Below are positions 25,829-33,817 of a stretch of 36,288 bases of DNA, one piece after another. Below the pieces are notes generated by a model, which had not been told where the DNA came from, ran no database searches, and saw nothing but the letters and a program-made list of their open reading frames with translations. The position numbers were made by a program, and so were the translations under genes. Each line of letters starts with the position of its first letter. The first letter of the stretch is position 1. The DNA lies in contig PALM01000002.1 in NCBI GenBank assembly GCA_002706365.1, positions 33,828-70,115 of the forward strand. Direction: 5' to 3'. The DNA comes from Flavobacteriales bacterium. GTDB taxonomy: Bacteria > Bacteroidota > Bacteroidia > Flavobacteriales_E > Vicingaceae.

Positions 25829-28165
25829 TTATCCTTTCTCATCTGAATAGTAGCCGTAACCATAACCATAGCCATAACCATAGGAGCCATATTTCCCTAT
25901 TGAACTTTTGGGCTTAACTGCATTCACAACGATCCCTATATTAGTAATGGATCTTTCTTCATAAAGTTGATTAATGTTCTCTAAATATGTCTTTTTTGTA
26001 TAATTATGCCTAACGATATATAGAGTTGCGTCTACAAATTGATTTAACAATAATGCATCTGTAACCAAACCTAATGGAGGAGAGTCAATAATGATCACTT
26101 CATATTTACTTTCTAGCTCTTGTATTAACTCTTTCATTGGTTCACTTTCTATTAATTCTGCTGGATTTGGCGGAATAGGACCAGCAGAAATTAAGTCTAA
26201 ATGAGGAATTTTAGTTACTTGGATGGCATCTTGAAGGGTTATCTTTCTAATTAATAAATTACTGAGTCCAAATTCATTTTTCAAACCAAAATCTTGATAA
26301 ATTTTAGGTCTCCGCAGATCTGCACCAACTAACAAAGTTTTTTTACCGGACGCAGAATACATTGCTGCTAAATTGATTGAAGTGAACGTCTTTCCTTCTC
26401 CGCTTACTGAGGAGGTGACTAAAACTTTTATTGAAGGTTTATCTGGCACCATAAAGTTCAATTTAGTCCTGATAGAACGAAATGCTTCTGCCATTACCGA
26501 TTTTAATGAATCAGTAACAATAATATTATTATTCAAATCCTTTTTAAGGAAAATGGAACCAAGAATTGGGATGGAAGTGAAGCTCTCTAACTCTGACTGA
26601 TCTACAATTTTATTATTTAAGACATAGATTAATAAAATTAAAAATGCAGGAAATAATATTCCAAAAAAGATTGAAAACCCAAAAATTGAAGCTGGTTTTG
26701 GACCTAAGAATCGAACCCGAAAAGGACTGGCATAATCTAATATTTGTGCCTTTTCTACGTTTGACGCTTTTGCAATACTAGCCTCAGAGCGTTTATTCAA
26801 TAAAAAAGTATATAAATCACCTAATATTTTATTCCTTCTCTGCAGTTTTAAAAATTCTCTTTGTTCTTTTGGAATTTTCAACACTTTTTCTTCTTCCCTT
26901 TGAATTTCAATCTTCAATGAATCAATTAGCTTTGTAACTTGATCTAGATTTGATTTGGCTACCTCATAAAGATCTTTCTTTCTAGCCTCAACTTCATCGT
27001 TAGCACGTTCGGCTAATAAGCTATTGGACTTTAATGCCAATGCTCTTTCCTTTTCTATGGCAATAGCCTCCATCAAGATCGATATCATTCGATCTATATT
27101 AGGATCTTGAAAACCAAATACAGCTGCAGATGGAAATGCAGTAAAATCCTTTTGTTTCACTGTTTTCATCAAGGCTGCATAGTACTCTTTCTGAACCGCC
27201 CTTTGTGTTTGAAGTTCTTCTAAATCAAAAACTCTTTTCAAATTATTTACATCTTCTTCTACAAAAATCCTGTCCTTAAAGTTCCTTTTTTGAAATTGCT
27301 CTAGGCGAAACTCAGTTAAAACCAAGGAATCAGCAATTTCTCGCAATTGATAATCTATAAATTTAATGGTATTGGTAGCAATTGTATTATTTTGCTCTAC
27401 ACCCCAGTCAATGTATGTCTCCATTAGAGTATTTAAGAAATCGATTGATTTAGCAGGGGTAGTCCCGCTATGGCTTAAAATCAATATGGATGATTCTTGA
27501 TTTTCAACATCTATACCTATACTGCCTTGTAAATTACGGGCTAAATTATCTATTGATACAAACTGAAAAAAGTAAGATTCGCTAGAGTAAACACTATTTG
27601 ATTTTACCACAATTTTAAACTCTAAATCACCAGTAGAATATGAGGAATCTAAGGCCTTCGTCTCTGCCTCTGTCAGTTCTTCTTTGATTTGTGAGATTCT
27701 ATAAACACCCTCTTTGGGAAAGTCGATATAATAAGACCCTGTCGCCTTACCTTTCTGGAGTTCAACTCTAAAATCAGAGCCAGGATAAAGCTCTGTAGTT
27801 TTTATATTACCTACTTTATAATAGTCAATTGGATGATCTAATCGATTTGCTACTTTTCTCATTAAGGGGAAAGAGCGGATTATTCCAATTTCATTAACTA
27901 ACCTATTTCTTCCACTTACTAATTCCATTCCTGGCAAGAAATACTCTTGCCCCCATGATGAGTACTCATCTTTAACCAACATTCGTGAACTTACAGAATA
28001 GGTTGAAGGTGTATATCTGAATTGATAATAGGCGTAGATAGTAGATCCAGCTAGCCCAATTACGAGGAGGTACCAATAATTAATAAAATAAGCCAAAAGT
28101 ATTTTTGGCTCAATTTGGATGGTATTTGAACTAGAACTGCGCACGTGTAAATATTTGAAATGCAA
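25829..28165 (-). CDS. wzc: Wzc-type polysaccharide co-polymerase / BY-kinase tyrosine autokinase
   Basis: The product is 778 residues. The N-terminus has a first membrane helix (about 27-47) of the Wzz domain, followed by a long periplasmic coiled-coil region and a second helix near 505-530 (FGFSIFFGILFPAFLILLI). The cytoplasmic BY-kinase domain has Walker A SSVSGEGKTFTSIN, Walker A' LLVGADLRRP and Walker B IIIDSPPLG. The C-terminus is a tyrosine cluster with eight Tyr between 759 and 773, alternating with Gly. Such proteins set polymer length and export through phosphorylation cycles, working with Wzy and an outer-membrane Wza. No Wza or cognate phosphatase is seen nearby. The start is TTG (28165) or GTG (28144). 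It heads the - strand operon, divergent from the T9SS-protein gene. Confidence 0.95.
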   Translation of the reverse strand: MHFKYLHVRSSSSNTIQIEPKILLAYFINYWYLLVIGLAGSTIYAYYQFRYTPSTYSVSSRMLVKDEYSSWGQEYFLPGMELVSGRNRLVNEIGIIRSFPLMRKVANRLDHPIDYYKVGNIKTTELYPGSDFRVELQKGKATGSYYIDFPKEGVYRISQIKEELTEAETKALDSSYSTGDLEFKIVVKSNSVYSSESYFFQFVSIDNLARNLQGSIGIDVENQESSILILSHSGTTPAKSIDFLNTLMETYIDWGVEQNNTIATNTIKFIDYQLREIADSLVLTEFRLEQFQKRNFKDRIFVEEDVNNLKRVFDLEELQTQRAVQKEYYAALMKTVKQKDFTAFPSAAVFGFQDPNIDRMISILMEAIAIEKERALALKSNSLLAERANDEVEARKKDLYEVAKSNLDQVTKLIDSLKIEIQREEEKVLKIPKEQREFLKLQRRNKILGDLYTFLLNKRSEASIAKASNVEKAQILDYASPFRVRFLGPKPASIFGFSIFFGILFPAFLILLIYVLNNKIVDQSELESFTSIPILGSIFLKKDLNNNIIVTDSLKSVMAEAFRSIRTKLNFMVPDKPSIKVLVTSSVSGEGKTFTSINLAAMYSASGKKTLLVGADLRRPKIYQDFGLKNEFGLSNLLIRKITLQDAIQVTKIPHLDLISAGPIPPNPAELIESEPMKELIQELESKYEVIIIDSPPLGLVTDALLLNQFVDATLYIVRHNYTKKTYLENINQLYEERSITNIGIVVNAVKPKSSIGKYGSYGYGYGYGYGYYSDEKG
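25853..25883 (-). repeat. In-frame hexanucleotide repeat encoding the Tyr-Gly tail of Wzc
   Basis: On the coding strand this is about five units of TAYGGY (TATGGT, TATGGC, TATGGT, TATGGT, TACGGC), each coding Tyr-Gly. The repeat could change in copy number by slippage without breaking the frame, altering the number of phosphorylatable tyrosines. Confidence 0.7.
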
Positions 28166-28197: not shown

Positions 28198-28404
28198 TCT
28201 TTGATTTATCTATGTTTTTATCTCCAACTTCAATTTTTTTTATTGATCTATTTTGAAAATTTCTCTTACTACCTTTCTTCATTGAATTAAAGATGAAAGT
28301 TTTCATGAAACAATAAAGACAATCTTTCGTATAAAGATTTCTAATCGAAAAGTAATGCTAATATTCAACAATCAGATAGAAGAATGGAGCTCCATTAAAG
28401 CAAT

Positions 28405-28424
28405 TGCAAATAGTTATATTTGCA
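28405..28424 (+). promoter_or_regulatory. Bacteroidota -7 promoter box (TATATTTG) inside an 8-bp inverted repeat
   Basis: TATATTTG at 28415-28422 matches the TAnnTTTG -7 consensus of Bacteroidota sigma factors and lies 19 bp before the ATG of the T9SS-protein gene. It is overlapped by an inverted repeat (TGCAAATA, loop GTTA, TATTTGCA). No clear -33 box was seen. The box falls within the longer in-frame ORF and so supports the ATG at 28442 as the real start. Confidence 0.55.
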
Positions 28425-28441
28425 GTCGTAAGAAAAAACTC

Positions 28442-31400
28442 ATGAAAAAAATTGTCTTCTTTACAGCCATTTCTTTGACAGTCCATTTATGTTCCGCTCA
28501 AATTGGGCCTGGAGGAGTTGGCAATAGTGCAAATAATATCCTATGGTTGGATGCAAATGATTTGTTGCTTAATAATGGTGACCCTGTTAATACATGGCCT
28601 GACAAATCTGGCAACAACAACGATGCAATTCAAAGTACGTCGACCAACCAGCCCACATTTGTTTTATCGGCAACTAACAACAGATCAGCCTTAAACTTTG
28701 ATGGGTCAAATGATTTTTTCAATTTAGGTAACCACATAACATCCAATGCAATAACCTTCTTTGCTGTTTATCAAACCTCGGTTACCAATGGAAGGACATT
28801 AATTAATTTAGAAAATCACTATTTCTTTCATCAAAATCAGAACATCAGAGCTAACTATGTGAACCCCAACTCACAAATTTCCGTGCTTGCCACAGCAGGG
28901 AGCAATTACCGTGTAGTTGAAATTGCTACAAACAGTGATTCACTAACAGGTACTGTTGCTATGAGGTCGGGAGTTTCTTCTACCTTAGCTGCTAGAACCC
29001 AGTTGAGAGGCAACCCAAATAGTACTATCGGAGTATTCAACACCTCAAATTTTTTAAATGGGCGTTTAGCAGAAGTTATTCTTTATAATTCAAATTTAAA
29101 TACTGCTCAAAAAAATATTATTTCAAATTACCTGGCTGCAAAATATAATGCTCGAAATTTTGTAAATCTTTATAATTATAAGAGCATTTTCAATAATGAT
29201 ATCTTCGGTATTGGTCAAGAAAGCGATGGTGGTCATTTTACTGCAAGAGGGGTGGACTCTCTTCAAATTAGTAATGCTTCTTCATTAGGTAATGGTGATT
29301 ACATTCTTATTGGCAATAATGGTGGAGATTTCAATGTAAATACTAGCGTCCCTGGAGGTATAACCGAAAGATGGAATAGAGCATGGAGAGCAGACCTAAC
29401 TGGAACACCAGGTAGTATTGACTTAGAATTCTTTCTAGGTTCAAATGGATTTGCCTCTACGAGTAACTATGTATTACTTGTTGAAACAGATGATGGGGAT
29501 TTTAGCAATGGCGGAACATATATTGATCTAGCTTCTCCGGTATATGACCCTGTTGACAATTCCATCTCCTTTTCTAATGTAAGTTTTCCAGATGGCGCAC
29601 GGTTTACTTTAGCTGAAAAGTCAGGAGTAATTACCGCAATTAGCAGTGGAAATTGGAACTCAATTTCTACTTGGGATTGTAGTTGTATTCCATCATTAGG
29701 AAGTGAAGTAATTATTCCCAGTCCTATTAATGTAATTGTTGATGCTAATTCATTCACTGGAGGTCTTGATATTAATAGTGGTGCTTCAATTAGCTTTATT
29801 GGTAATGACTCACTTTTTATAAATGGGCCTCTCATATTTGGCGAACCAAGCTCATTTAACAACGGTACAATTGTAGATGCTTCAACTGCTGGCTTGCAAT
29901 CTATTGATAATAATAGCGGAGGGATAGTATCTTTCAATAACTTTTTTGGAAATAATCCAGATGGAGTTCAATTTACTGGAGGAGACTTTGAGTTGACTGG
30001 CAGTCTAAGGATTTCACAAGGAGGCATGGACGTATCCAATGCGAATAGCTTTACTTTGGTTTCAAACTCAAGCTCAACTTCACAAATTTTAGAATCAATG
30101 TCAAATGCTTTTGCAGGTGACTTTGTAGTGCAGCGATATATAGGTCCAAGAAATGCAAATTTTGCAAATTTATCATCACCTATTGTTAATGCTACTGTTG
30201 CTCAATGGGATGATGATCTATTTTTGAGTGGTGTAGGTGGGGTTGATGGCAATGCAGTAGCTTCCGGTGGAGGTATCTTCTATTCAGTATACTCATACAG
30301 CCGTCAACAAGATAAACACGATACAATTACTTCAGTATCAACGGCTATTGTGCCAGGTCAAGGTTATGAATTATGGTTAGCAGACAATTTATCAACCTTC
30401 AATGGTAGAATAATTGACTATAATGGAACACCAAACTCTGGTGATGTAATTAGTGCATTTGTCGATAAAGGTTGGAATTTGCTTGGTAATCCATATCATA
30501 GTTTTATTCAATATGATAGTATCAGTACTTCAATTTGGGTACCAAACAGTTACTATATCTTCAATACGAATAATGGAAGTTATGATTTCTTTAACGGAGC
30601 AAGCAAGCCTCCTATTGCTCCAGGTCAGGGATTCTGGATTAATAAAATTCCTGGTGGAACCAAAGTTGTAGATTTTAGGGAAGTAGCTAAAGTAAATTCA
30701 AATTCTTCATCATTCTTGAGGAAAGCTATTAATAAAACATTCTCTTTGAGAATAAGCAACGAAATTAACACATTTAGTCATCTTGCTAGCATTGATTTTG
30801 ATGCAAACTCAACTGACAAAATTGATGAGAAAGATGGGTATTATTTACCAAGCCCTGAGAAAAGAGCACCAGCAATCTTCTCGAAAGCTTCCAATAGTGA
30901 TGAAGGCTTAATCTTTAATAGTCTTAGCCCATTTGAGCAAAATCATGTTATACCTATGTCAGTATATACAGGTGTAAAGGGTAAACATACGATTTCAATT
31001 CAAAATATAGGTGAAGCTTTAAAGGAGTATAACTGTATCTATCTATCTGATAAAATGGAAAGCAGCCTCATCGATTTGACTGTTGAACAAGAATATGATT
31101 TCTTTTCAAATTCTACAGCAACATCTAATCGCTTTGAATTGATTTTGAGCAATTCATTCGATGAATGTCAAAAATTGGTTGAAGGTGAACTTAGTATCAT
31201 TCAAAAACTTGATGATGCCATTTCCTTAAGAAATAATCAAAGTGGGTGGTGGATCGATTACAGTTTTAGTTCTCCTGACCAAAAGCAGCTTGAGATTAGG
31301 GTGTATAGTCTAGCCGGCCAATTAGTAGTGTCCCCTGAATCTGTTAGTGTAAATGGCAGCGGTTCACTTGCCCTCTCGCAATTGAGAAGTCTAAATGGCA

Positions 31401-31459
31401 TCTTTCTAATTCAAGTGATTGGTGGTGGTGAAATTGTCAACCAAAGAGTAAAACTCTAA
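28442..31459 (+). CDS. Secreted LamG-like multidomain protein with T9SS type A C-terminal sorting domain
   Basis: The product is 1005 residues from the ATG at 28442; the in-frame ATG at 28355 would put the signal peptide inside the protein and lies upstream of the promoter box. Residues 1-19 are a signal peptide (cleavage after CSA). A concanavalin/LamG-like jelly roll follows (about 25-240: NILWLDANDL, TWPDKSGNNNDA, ALNFDGSNDFF, LAEVILYNSNL). After it come a beta-rich region with DIFGIGQESDGGH and a probable G8/beta-helix segment starting GNWNSISTWDC. The last 75 residues (LEIRVYSLAGQLVV, LNGIFLIQVIGGG, VNQRVKL) form a T9SS type A domain, which takes the protein through the outer membrane and anchors or releases it at the surface. 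It is divergent from wzc. Probably an adhesin or glycan-binding surface protein. Confidence 0.85.
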   Translation: MKKIVFFTAISLTVHLCSAQIGPGGVGNSANNILWLDANDLLLNNGDPVNTWPDKSGNNNDAIQSTSTNQPTFVLSATNNRSALNFDGSNDFFNLGNHITSNAITFFAVYQTSVTNGRTLINLENHYFFHQNQNIRANYVNPNSQISVLATAGSNYRVVEIATNSDSLTGTVAMRSGVSSTLAARTQLRGNPNSTIGVFNTSNFLNGRLAEVILYNSNLNTAQKNIISNYLAAKYNARNFVNLYNYKSIFNNDIFGIGQESDGGHFTARGVDSLQISNASSLGNGDYILIGNNGGDFNVNTSVPGGITERWNRAWRADLTGTPGSIDLEFFLGSNGFASTSNYVLLVETDDGDFSNGGTYIDLASPVYDPVDNSISFSNVSFPDGARFTLAEKSGVITAISSGNWNSISTWDCSCIPSLGSEVIIPSPINVIVDANSFTGGLDINSGASISFIGNDSLFINGPLIFGEPSSFNNGTIVDASTAGLQSIDNNSGGIVSFNNFFGNNPDGVQFTGGDFELTGSLRISQGGMDVSNANSFTLVSNSSSTSQILESMSNAFAGDFVVQRYIGPRNANFANLSSPIVNATVAQWDDDLFLSGVGGVDGNAVASGGGIFYSVYSYSRQQDKHDTITSVSTAIVPGQGYELWLADNLSTFNGRIIDYNGTPNSGDVISAFVDKGWNLLGNPYHSFIQYDSISTSIWVPNSYYIFNTNNGSYDFFNGASKPPIAPGQGFWINKIPGGTKVVDFREVAKVNSNSSSFLRKAINKTFSLRISNEINTFSHLASIDFDANSTDKIDEKDGYYLPSPEKRAPAIFSKASNSDEGLIFNSLSPFEQNHVIPMSVYTGVKGKHTISIQNIGEALKEYNCIYLSDKMESSLIDLTVEQEYDFFSNSTATSNRFELILSNSFDECQKLVEGELSIIQKLDDAISLRNNQSGWWIDYSFSSPDQKQLEIRVYSLAGQLVVSPESVSVNGSGSLALSQLRSLNGIFLIQVIGGGEIVNQRVKL

Positions 31460-31487: not shown

Positions 31488-31712
31488 ATGAAGAAATTAA
31501 TCACCATCACCTTCCTTTTTCTGGCCATTGGCTTTTCTCAAGACCTGATCGCTCAACCACCAGACCCAGGTGGAGGTGGAGATCCAAAACCGGGTTGTTT
31601 CCCACCTCCCTGTGTGCCAATTGATGGGGGTTTGTCCTTTCTATTGGCAGCTGGAGTAGCGTATGGAGGTAAAAAGGTTTACGATATGAATAAAAAGGAA
31701 GAGGAGCTATAG
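31488..31712 (+). CDS. Small secreted protein with PID-CTERM-like exosortase sorting tail
   Basis: The product is 74 residues from the ATG at 31488 (a TTG at 31476 is less likely). Residues 1-22 are a signal peptide (LITITFLFLAIGF core, cleavage after LIA). A short Pro/Gly-rich segment with two cysteines (C37, C42) follows. Then comes the motif PIDGG (44-48), a hydrophobic stretch LSFLLAAGVAYGG (49-61) and a basic start KK, the tripartite signature of a sorting signal (motif, membrane segment, positive charge). It matches what I recall as the PID-CTERM domain of Bacteroidota exosortase systems. The gene lies 28 bp after the T9SS protein and is followed by a terminator. The likely processor is the exosortase encoded 1.3 kb downstream. 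Function of the mature peptide unknown. Confidence 0.85.
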   Translation: MKKLITITFLFLAIGFSQDLIAQPPDPGGGGDPKPGCFPPPCVPIDGGLSFLLAAGVAYGGKKVYDMNKKEEEL

Positions 31713-31728
31713 GCGCCTCTTTTTTTTT
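31701..31728 (+). terminator. Rho-independent terminator after the PID-CTERM gene
   Basis: A GAGG...CCTC stem with one internal mismatch (31701-31719) overlaps the stop codon and is followed by nine T residues (31720-31728). Position and T-run support termination of the T9SS-protein/PID-CTERM transcript. Confidence 0.7.
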
Positions 31729-31807
31729 ATGACCATTTTCTAACCCCTAATTACGAATTACGAATGGCATTCGAAATCAAGAATATCTTTTAGTTATCTA
31801 AATATTT

Positions 31808-31917: not shown

Positions 31918-32376
31918 ATGAAGAACTTTTGGCTTTGGATACTTTTTCTAGCCCTTCTATTCGTTGGGAGTTATTATAGGGAGGTTCTCTTCCGTTCTGT
32001 AAACGCCTTAATCGCCGGTGAAGATTTCTTCTATGCCAAAACCACCTACCTCCCTTTCCTGGCTGATTGGAGTCGGGGGGAGTTGGTGAAATTGAAGTAT
32101 GGGATGACGGTGGGGTTCTCGGTCTTCTTTATGGGAGTGAGTTTGTTAGGGTTGAAGCTTTCGCTTAATGAGAAATGGCCCTATTATCTACTATCCATTA
32201 TCTATTTATTACTGATCATGGTTGCGGCAATTACTGTGATCATTGGATTAGTTTTCCTGAGTTTTTCAGAGGTATATCCCTTTCTTCGGATGATGATCGG
32301 GTGGTTTCATTCACCGGTGTTGTACCTGCTGCTAAGCGCAGCAACCTTTGCTATTAGGCAGATCGATCAAAATTGA
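31918..32376 (+). CDS. Four-helix membrane protein, probable exosortase-associated protein
   Basis: The product is 152 residues with four predicted membrane helices (about 2-20, 62-80, 88-115, 130-147) and no enzymatic motif. After the first helix comes YYREVLFRSVNALIAGEDFFY, an Arg-Glu-x-Leu-Phe pattern like that of the small membrane proteins encoded next to Bacteroidota exosortases (the XrtF/XrtX-associated types). It lies between the PID-CTERM gene and the exosortase gene on the same strand, each separated by repeat-rich DNA, and its start ATG is the first in frame, with near-consensus TATTTTCG upstream. A role as an exosortase partner or stabiliser is inferred from context and this weak motif; a different small membrane protein cannot be excluded. 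Confidence 0.62.
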   Translation: MKNFWLWILFLALLFVGSYYREVLFRSVNALIAGEDFFYAKTTYLPFLADWSRGELVKLKYGMTVGFSVFFMGVSLLGLKLSLNEKWPYYLLSIIYLLLIMVAAITVIIGLVFLSFSEVYPFLRMMIGWFHSPVLYLLLSAATFAIRQIDQN

Positions 32377-32995: not shown

Positions 32996-33003
32996 TAAAT
33001 TTG
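32996..33003 (+). promoter_or_regulatory. -7 promoter box (TAAATTTG) for the exosortase gene
   Basis: TAAATTTG is an exact match to TAnnTTTG and ends 6 bp before the ATG at 33010, implying a near-leaderless message. It overlaps the alternative TTG start at 33001, arguing against that start. No clear -33 box was seen. Confidence 0.45.
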
Positions 33004-33009
33004 ACCTTA

Positions 33010-33546
33010 ATGAAAAATAAAATCAAGGATTTTTATTTAGCTAATAAGGAGGCAGTACTATTTGTACTAAAGCTTATCGGGCTATACCTAATCCTGCAAG
33101 GAATATATGATTATATCCTAACCCCTTACACAGCAATTGACAGCTGGCTGATCAACAGCATTATCGCTTCTTCTGAAAGCGGCCTCCAGGCCTTGGGCTA
33201 TGAGTTGATGCAAAACACCTATTACCAATACCACATGGGTATTGCCGGTACTTCCGGAGTGGTGATCGGGAATCCTTGTGATGGATTGAGCCTCTTTATT
33301 CTTTATACTGCGTTTGTGGTAGTGTTTAAGGGGAAGTGGTGGATGAAGCTTTTGTTCATTGTGCCAGGGATCTTATTGATCCACTTTTTGAACGTGGCCC
33401 GGGTGATGGGATTGGCGTTGATCGTGAAGTATTATCCTGATTCATTGGATTTTCATCATTCGTATACTTTTACGCTATTGGTATATACTATTATCTTCGC
33501 CCTTTGGATGATTAGAATCAAGTTCTACCAGAAACGAAAAGCGTAA
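33010..33546 (+). CDS. Exosortase family transpeptidase/protease (Bacteroidota type)
   Basis: The product is 178 residues with about five membrane helices. The exosortase/archaeosortase catalytic set is present: Cys C90 in IGNPCDGLSLF, Arg R131 in HFLNVARVMGLAL, and His H149/H150 in LDFHHSYTFTL, each at the periplasmic end of a helix in the usual order. Enzymes of this family cleave sorting-tail proteins at the inner membrane and are usually tied to polysaccharide loci. The likely substrate is the PID-CTERM protein encoded just upstream. The ATG at 33010 is chosen over TTG 33001 because a -7 box overlaps the latter. Which Xrt subfamily (XrtX is a candidate from memory) needs a profile search. 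Confidence 0.9.
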   Translation: MKNKIKDFYLANKEAVLFVLKLIGLYLILQGIYDYILTPYTAIDSWLINSIIASSESGLQALGYELMQNTYYQYHMGIAGTSGVVIGNPCDGLSLFILYTAFVVVFKGKWWMKLLFIVPGILLIHFLNVARVMGLALIVKYYPDSLDFHHSYTFTLLVYTIIFALWMIRIKFYQKRKA

Positions 33547-33569: not shown

Positions 33570-33680
33570 CACGGAGGCGCTTTGCTCCGCAAAGCTAAAA
33601 CAGAGCCCCGACCCAGTCAGGGTCATAGAGGCTCGAAAAGAGCATTTCATTCCAAAGTTCCGTCCTCATCTTGGTACTCA
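33570..33680. repeat. Composite intergenic repeat, copy 3, degenerate, before the exosortase relic
   Basis: CACGGAGG followed by a hairpin (GCTTTGC / GCAAAGC, 33579-33595), then ACAGAG, CAGGGTCATAGAGG and finally GTCCTCATCTTGG (33662-33674). These blocks occur in the same order as copy 2, with more substitutions. This repeat lies just before the decayed exosortase fragment, as copy 2 lies before the intact gene. Confidence 0.5.
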
Positions 33681-33709
33681 TTCCTAACTCTAAGTATTCT
33701 CAACTAAAA

Positions 33710-33817
33710 CTGTATTTTCATCATTCTTATACATTCACACTTTTCGTTTATACCAGTTATACAAGTATTTTGGGGATTTGGGTGATGAGAATAAAACTTT
33801 ATCAATCAAGGAAGCTT
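33710..33817 (+). pseudogene. Relic of a second exosortase gene (3' end only)
   Basis: In one frame this stretch reads LYFHHSYTFTLFVYT, then a four-residue insert, then ILGIWVMRIKLYQSRKL. About 22 of 33 alignable residues equal the last 33 of the intact exosortase just upstream, including the His-His-Ser-Tyr block. No counterpart of the Cys or Arg regions is present and no start codon fits, so it cannot encode an active enzyme. Nucleotide identity is partial (for example TTTTCATCATTC is exact), implying an old duplication. Its last bases overlap the 3' end of the opposing SGNH-type gene. Confidence 0.8.

Follow-up and report, generated by a model that had tools for sequence, protein, structure and literature searches.

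In the published model of exosortase action, a protein is exported, its signal is removed, it is retained by its tail, and it is then transferred to a nucleophile (accessible text of PMC1569441 and PMC11980579); such systems support adhesion and polysaccharide attachment (accessible text of PMC12188702). Several described systems come close to the one reported here. PEP-CTERM/EpsH (XrtA) joins a signal peptide, a motif, a transmembrane helix, and a basic end to an exopolysaccharide context (PMC1569441, in part), and its cargo proteins are many, long, and divergent. MYXO-CTERM/myxosortase has a conserved Cys beside a C-terminal sorting tag, with a CPBP-type enzyme, large cargo, a Cys required for cleavage, and a GCGC-type motif (PMC11980579, in part). 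Deletion of XrtF of Flavobacterium johnsoniae, or of its partner, lowers biofilm formation and colonization (PMC10936215, in part), and the accessible portion of one account describes the targets of XrtF as not known (PMC12188702). Type A cargo of the type IX secretion system (T9SS) is anchored to LPS. The tail and the enzyme treated here are already named in NCBIfam as PID-CTERM and exosortase X (XrtX). The name PID-CTERM was not found in the literature searched, which covers few subscription papers; the inspected matches to exosortase X or XrtX either concerned other subjects or lay within longer words; and within the same search, with most subscription papers outside it, no paper was found joining three of exosortase, small protein, microprotein, and type IX secretion.

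Polysaccharide genes are plentiful in the window (the whole stretch of 36,288 nucleotides analyzed, from a source genome of 3.0 Mb in 47 contigs), which also includes two genes of about 290 amino acids, very alike and arranged in tandem, at 3-860 and 989-1882. The window encodes a PID-CTERM microprotein, with exosortase X 1.3 kb downstream of its gene (Table 1). Set against the PID-CTERM/exosortase X families (NF046080, NF046081, and NF046082), the tail and the enzyme both score above the curated cut-offs, whereas the two-Cys core and the upstream T9SS gene fall outside the 25-position tail model and the associated membrane protein of the window is below the NF046082 cut-off. The tail reaches 47.5 bits against a cut-off of 26, bearing out an earlier reading made from the sequence alone (the sequence-only reading), which had proposed an exosortase-type tail. 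The nearest sister family of the window exosortase is XrtF (85.8 bits against a cut-off of 90); a crude filter applied to 11 XrtF loci (L163-L173) found no neighboring PID microprotein. The layout recalls PEP-CTERM, but here most genomes of the family have one such protein, and it has 10-29 mature residues.

Table 1. Features of the peptide locus, in window coordinates
Feature	Position	Strand	Evidence
Wzc-like polysaccharide export autokinase	25829..28165	-	TIGR01007 175.7 bits, cut-off 108
Giant protein with T9SS-type C-terminal tail	28355..31459	+	TIGR04183 21.6-27.8 bits depending on the search, cut-off 23
PID-CTERM microprotein gene, 74 codons plus stop	31488..31712	+	Translation; NF046080 47.5 bits, residues 43-66
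Predicted signal peptide, residues 1-22, cut between LIA and Q	31488..31553	+	Read from sequence
Predicted mature peptide Q23-D46, 24 residues	31554..31625	+	Translation and comparison with relatives
PID-CTERM tail: GG, short transmembrane stretch, charged cytoplasmic end	31626..31709	+	Sequence, NF046080
Terminator-like hairpin with A and T runs	31690..31730	+	RNA fold -19.1 kcal/mol, z -5.2
XrtX-associated membrane protein	31918..32376	+	Gene order; weak NF046082 match, 25.2 bits, under cut-off 75
Exosortase X	33001..33546	+	NF046081 172.5 bits, just above cut-off 170

The microprotein translates as MKKLITITFLFLAIGFSQDLIAQPPDPGGGGDPKPGCFPPPCVPIDGGLSFLLAAGVAYGGKKVYDMNKKEEEL (74 amino acids, ATG at 31488, stop at 31710-31712), in which an N-terminal signal, the motif, a transmembrane stretch, and a basic end can be read in that order. 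Both cleavages are predicted. The roughly 24-residue stretch with two Cys that had been placed at 31554-31631 has exact coordinates: the codon of Q23 begins at 31554, that of G48 ends at 31631, and by translation Q23-D46 occupies 31554-31625, with Cys37 at 31596-31598 and Cys42 at 31611-31613. The Pro/Gly tract opposes base composition, GC being 0.353 across the window and 0.556 in the mature-peptide stretch. The lipobox is absent, as the earlier reading had said, because Q rather than Cys follows LIA at the expected signal-peptidase site, and an ordinary lipoprotein is thereby rejected. Less remains of the idea that the N-terminal Gln is a feature of note: signal-peptide cleavage exposes a Gln, cyclized to pyroglutamate, in most Bacteroidetes substrates (the Q-rule; PMC5837995, in part), so a Gln at this place is not special, and only 23/64 relatives start with Q at our heuristic cut site. 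Head-to-tail cyclization is disfavored for peptides that start with Q, because pyroglutamate would presumably block the amine.

PID-CTERM matches at E 0.01 occur in 36 of the 46 genomes of the GTDB family to which the source genome belongs, exactly one in each of 30, and the core in this family usually reads CWPPPC or CFPPPC, with VPID or IPID after it. Across many families we counted 64 peptides from loci with an exosortase of at least 165 bits against a local profile (strong-XrtX relatives; L102, a very long branch in the exosortase tree, was left out of the peptide, T9SS-neighbor, and gene-order counts). All 64 have mature lengths of 10-29 residues, with ends set by our own cut-site heuristic, in agreement with the earlier view that the product is too small for a domain; their mature composition is 39% Pro, 18% Gly, and 8.5% Cys. 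Two Cys are present in 59, four in one, one in one, and none in three, and at least two Cys lie within a Pro/Gly-rich stretch in 60/64. The spacing C-x4-C is found in 46/64 and C[WFIY]PPPC in 44/64, against a background rate for C-x4-C of 0.10% among 128,577 24-residue pieces of T9SS-tail proteins from the same loci.

In comparisons within ten sets of relatives, all 135 differences at the six CxPPPC codons are synonymous and 0 are nonsynonymous; they are summed over pairs and hence not independent events. On the same sets pN/pS rises from 0 in CxPPPC and 0.14 in xPID through 0.26 (GG plus the transmembrane stretch), 0.36 (end of the tail), and 0.37 (the six codons preceding the first Cys) to 0.74 in the signal peptide, which is thus the quickest-changing region of the gene. 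These values leave out two of 12 sets, g6 and g35, in which the Cys spacing differs and which do show changes within the last ten mature codons; over all 12 sets the last ten mature codons stand at 0.06, the tail at 0.28, and the signal at 0.76. Because C-x4-C is present in 46/64 against 0.10%, and because selection on the core codons is strong at the protein level, the two-Cys core is not due to chance; and since its pN/pS is 0 against 0.14 for xPID, it is kept more strictly than the PID sorting motif itself. (The Cys are also invariant in alignment A1, which is no count because its 25 rows were chosen.)

The Cys pair and Pro core are therefore the best-kept part of the gene in the strong-XrtX group, in answer to the homolog alignment that the sequence-only reading had proposed. 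That reading had also raised the possibility of homologs that keep only signal and tail around a random middle. Within the strong-XrtX group the middle is, judged by these comparisons, non-random; PID-CTERM proteins outside the group, which are tiny too, have different middles, such as GGFDDEPQDVPVDGG or, in Bacteroidales, GNTPVGGGAPIDGG. The Bacteroidales PID peptides (L213, L218, L233, L242, L244, L246, L252, and L258) have common Cys-less cores, mostly GNTPVGGGAPID or PVGAPID, which suggests several micropeptide subfamilies. A further Bacteroidales locus (L248:1463-7546) contains two PID peptides, each right behind its own T9SS-tail gene. The source genome itself has a second PID-like gene (L103:5268-5567, minus strand; G000:C23:17306-17377) with CVPPPC and a long Asn/Gly-rich mature stretch that ends CVPPPCVPIDQG; its tail (21.4 bits) is under the PID cut-off, and the gene is neither near XrtX nor behind a T9SS gene.

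We propose, with a probability of roughly 45%, that the microprotein is a dedicated micro-substrate of exosortase X, that the two-Cys peptide is itself the functional product, and that it serves as a surface or matrix element working with the giant T9SS protein encoded upstream. We infer the following course. Sec would export the pre-protein, and signal peptidase I would cut it between LIA and Q while the tail keeps the peptide in the inner membrane. Cys37 and Cys42 could close a six-residue, Pro-stiffened loop (CFPPPC) through a presumed disulfide. XrtX would then cut at or beside PID-GG and hand the new C-terminus to an amine, possibly one carried by a lipid or polysaccharide that the neighboring export genes handle. 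The loop would in this way be shown on the surface or in the matrix, where it would work with the T9SS giant and with polysaccharide export, probably as a docking or cross-linking partner of the giant in adhesion or biofilm. Attachment of glycan to a side chain, another role suggested earlier, is unlikely: neither D[ST][AILVMT], which we take to be a glycosylation motif, nor N-x-S/T is found in any of the 64 relatives, some Ser or Thr being present in 35. At the level of sequence, a cross-linker, an anchor, and a signal would look alike.

The exosortase has Cys93-x-Gly, Asn131-x-x-Arg134, and His153, to be compared with the EpsH family motifs Cys-x-Gly, Asn-x-x-Arg, and His-x-x-x-Gly (PMC1569441, in part); the last is represented by His153 without the Gly, and a loose pattern fits 61/75 XrtX rows. 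A weak second XrtX-like match just past the gene (33668-33811, 24.8 bits, profile positions 121-165) is perhaps a fragment or chance. Tail and enzyme occur together across the class: among 396 genomes PID-CTERM is matched in 179 and XrtX at E 1e-20 in 202, with both in 165, PID only in 14, XrtX only in 37, and neither in 180, counts uncorrected for kinship. The loci themselves are a non-random sample, picked partly through PID matches and partly through XrtX matches. In a quick-search tree built from 74 XrtX rows plus a single XrtF row serving as outgroup, all 60 two-Cys rows fall inside one clade of 66 rows (SH-aLRT 97), which also holds two Cys-less rows (L071 and L102) and four rows for which no peptide was seen. 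Eight genomes have XrtX of at least 165 bits and no PID match; six of these (G120, G079, G145, G174, G064, and G305) retain a gene with two Cys in which the PID motif or the tail is altered, and no peptide was seen in G014, where the stretch ends with the contig, or in G194.

Since the core adjoins PID and co-segregates with a single clade of exosortases, CxPPPC might instead belong to a longer recognition signal, read by this XrtX clade along with PID, the released peptide being waste or the cut regulatory. The exceptions to the co-segregation make this doubtful. The Cys-less L071 lies within the clade; L064, L072, and L085, with 0, 0, and 1 Cys, have strong XrtX, though outside the clade; and G042, in which XrtX gave a single match at E 1e-20 (a weaker exosortase being possible), has a second, Cys-less PID protein, L040. 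L071 and the Cys-less protein of G042 speak against a need of the enzyme for the Cys pair. CxPPPC is moreover stricter than PID and persists where PID has decayed, as in the six genomes with an altered motif or tail.

A conserved Cys beside a C-terminal sorting tag has a precedent in MYXO-CTERM (PMC11980579, in part), and one of the two Cys could likewise be lipid-modified, as predicted there, anchoring the peptide in the outer membrane. We regard this as improbable, however, because two Cys with Pro-rich spacing are kept rather than one; nor did the microprotein match the MYXO-CTERM profile, NF046080 being its only match in an NCBIfam search at E up to 1.

Gene order bears on the remaining explanations. 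The giant gene stops 28 nt ahead of the microprotein gene, and the strong hairpin overlaps the microprotein stop codon; from the short gap and the hairpin, the pair is predicted to form a single closed transcript. Consensus scans for promoters and terminators performed no better than on shuffles, and the hairpin, which came from folding, was not among their hits. Comparison with relatives suggests 28442 as the true start of the giant. Against TIGR04183 (cut-off 23) it scores 21.6 bits as a whole protein, 24.8 over its last 560 amino acids, and 27.8 in the genome search, the match beginning at position 14-15 of the 72 in the profile; against Pfam PF18962 it scores 14.6 bits, under the cut-off of 27. 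The source genome has 102 T9SS-tail matches, and the C-terminal half of the giant has one match; among the loci examined from genus g54, no homolog of this giant was found.

Of the 134 peptide genes whose upstream side could be assessed, 71 have a T9SS-tail gene ending immediately before them (49 with two Cys, 21 without Cys, and one other); on the downstream side such a gene starts right after 3 of 139 non-redundant PID peptides. These counts were made with a tail profile built largely from these giants. (In the 139-row survey a signal-peptide Cys accounts for some of the one-Cys labels, and the first row for L226 is probably not genuine.) Rechecked independently of that profile, upstream tails exceed the TIGR04183 cut-off in 9/10 pieces and that of PF18962 in 2/8. 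The arrangement is not universal: a T9SS-tail gene is absent upstream of 42/94 two-Cys peptides, and a further three lie at contig ends. The T9SS gene just upstream, which the sequence-only reading had overlooked, is new here. In the window's family the peptide gene is directly behind the giant gene in 17/21 loci, one of the other four being at a contig end.

Two hydrophobic stretches flank a short loop in the microprotein, and XrtX follows the peptide gene directly in 46/64 loci, so an unprocessed membrane hairpin, for instance a subunit or regulator of XrtX, has to be weighed. Its first stretch, however, changes as quickly as an ordinary signal peptide and ends in a signal-peptidase-like site, and the gene often accompanies a T9SS gene instead: XrtX comes directly after the peptide gene in 0/17 loci of the window's family in which both were seen, the peptide staying with the T9SS gene though XrtX sits elsewhere. 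We consider the hairpin a poor candidate.

Clusters recurring near 67 strong-XrtX loci comprise the associated membrane protein (56), the Wzc-like kinase (45), a large T9SS-type protein (41), the peptide (52, an undercount owing to blast clustering), and a cluster that includes a serine hydroxymethyltransferase (39; one member tested). Release of the peptide as a diffusible signal is very improbable: it is small, stiffened by Pro, and possibly capped by pyroglutamate, but its core barely varies between families, and the recurring neighbors, most of which are unannotated, yielded no receptor cluster and, apart from the Wzc-like kinase, no kinase cluster.

The proposed micro-substrate reading can be carried further, though unlikely in this form. 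Exosortase and T9SS would constitute one two-part display system in Bacteroidota, in which XrtX attaches the C-terminus of the micropeptide to a lipid or polysaccharide of the surface, and the micropeptide, as dedicated partner of the giant encoded just upstream, docks or cross-links that giant, whose tail is without the usual PNP start. The known LPS anchoring of T9SS cargo would in that case be replaced or assisted by the micropeptide, with docking or cross-linking in the two-Cys clade occurring through the two-Cys loop. The upstream giants have T9SS-type tails, as type A cargo does, but most of these tails lack the PNP start; an xPNP start is seen in 5/71 upstream giants against 28/64 other tails in the loci, a contrast biased by the profile used. 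Several of these tails are also under the cut-off for the type C tail NF033708. No Cys is universal among the giants, and a giant Cys as universal disulfide partner was rejected (the CxC Cys are present in 19 and 17 of 19 full-length giants); a later Cys pair is found in 27 and 29 of 35.

The cargo described here is little else than a signal, a tail, and a peptide of 10-29 residues, and yet no other part of the gene is kept as well as the peptide core. With its one obvious small substrate, such an exosortase would offer a simple model in which to look for the acceptor of exosortase cargo, of interest also for the sister XrtF, which has a biofilm phenotype and still lacks known targets (PMC12188702, in part). 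That the peptide genes so often follow T9SS genes hints at a connection of two surface-display pathways, of which no description was found in the literature searched, and a two-Cys peptide with a Pro-rich core nearly constant over many Bacteroidota, found next to its predicted trimming enzyme or behind a giant-protein gene, suggests a dedicated surface-display system.
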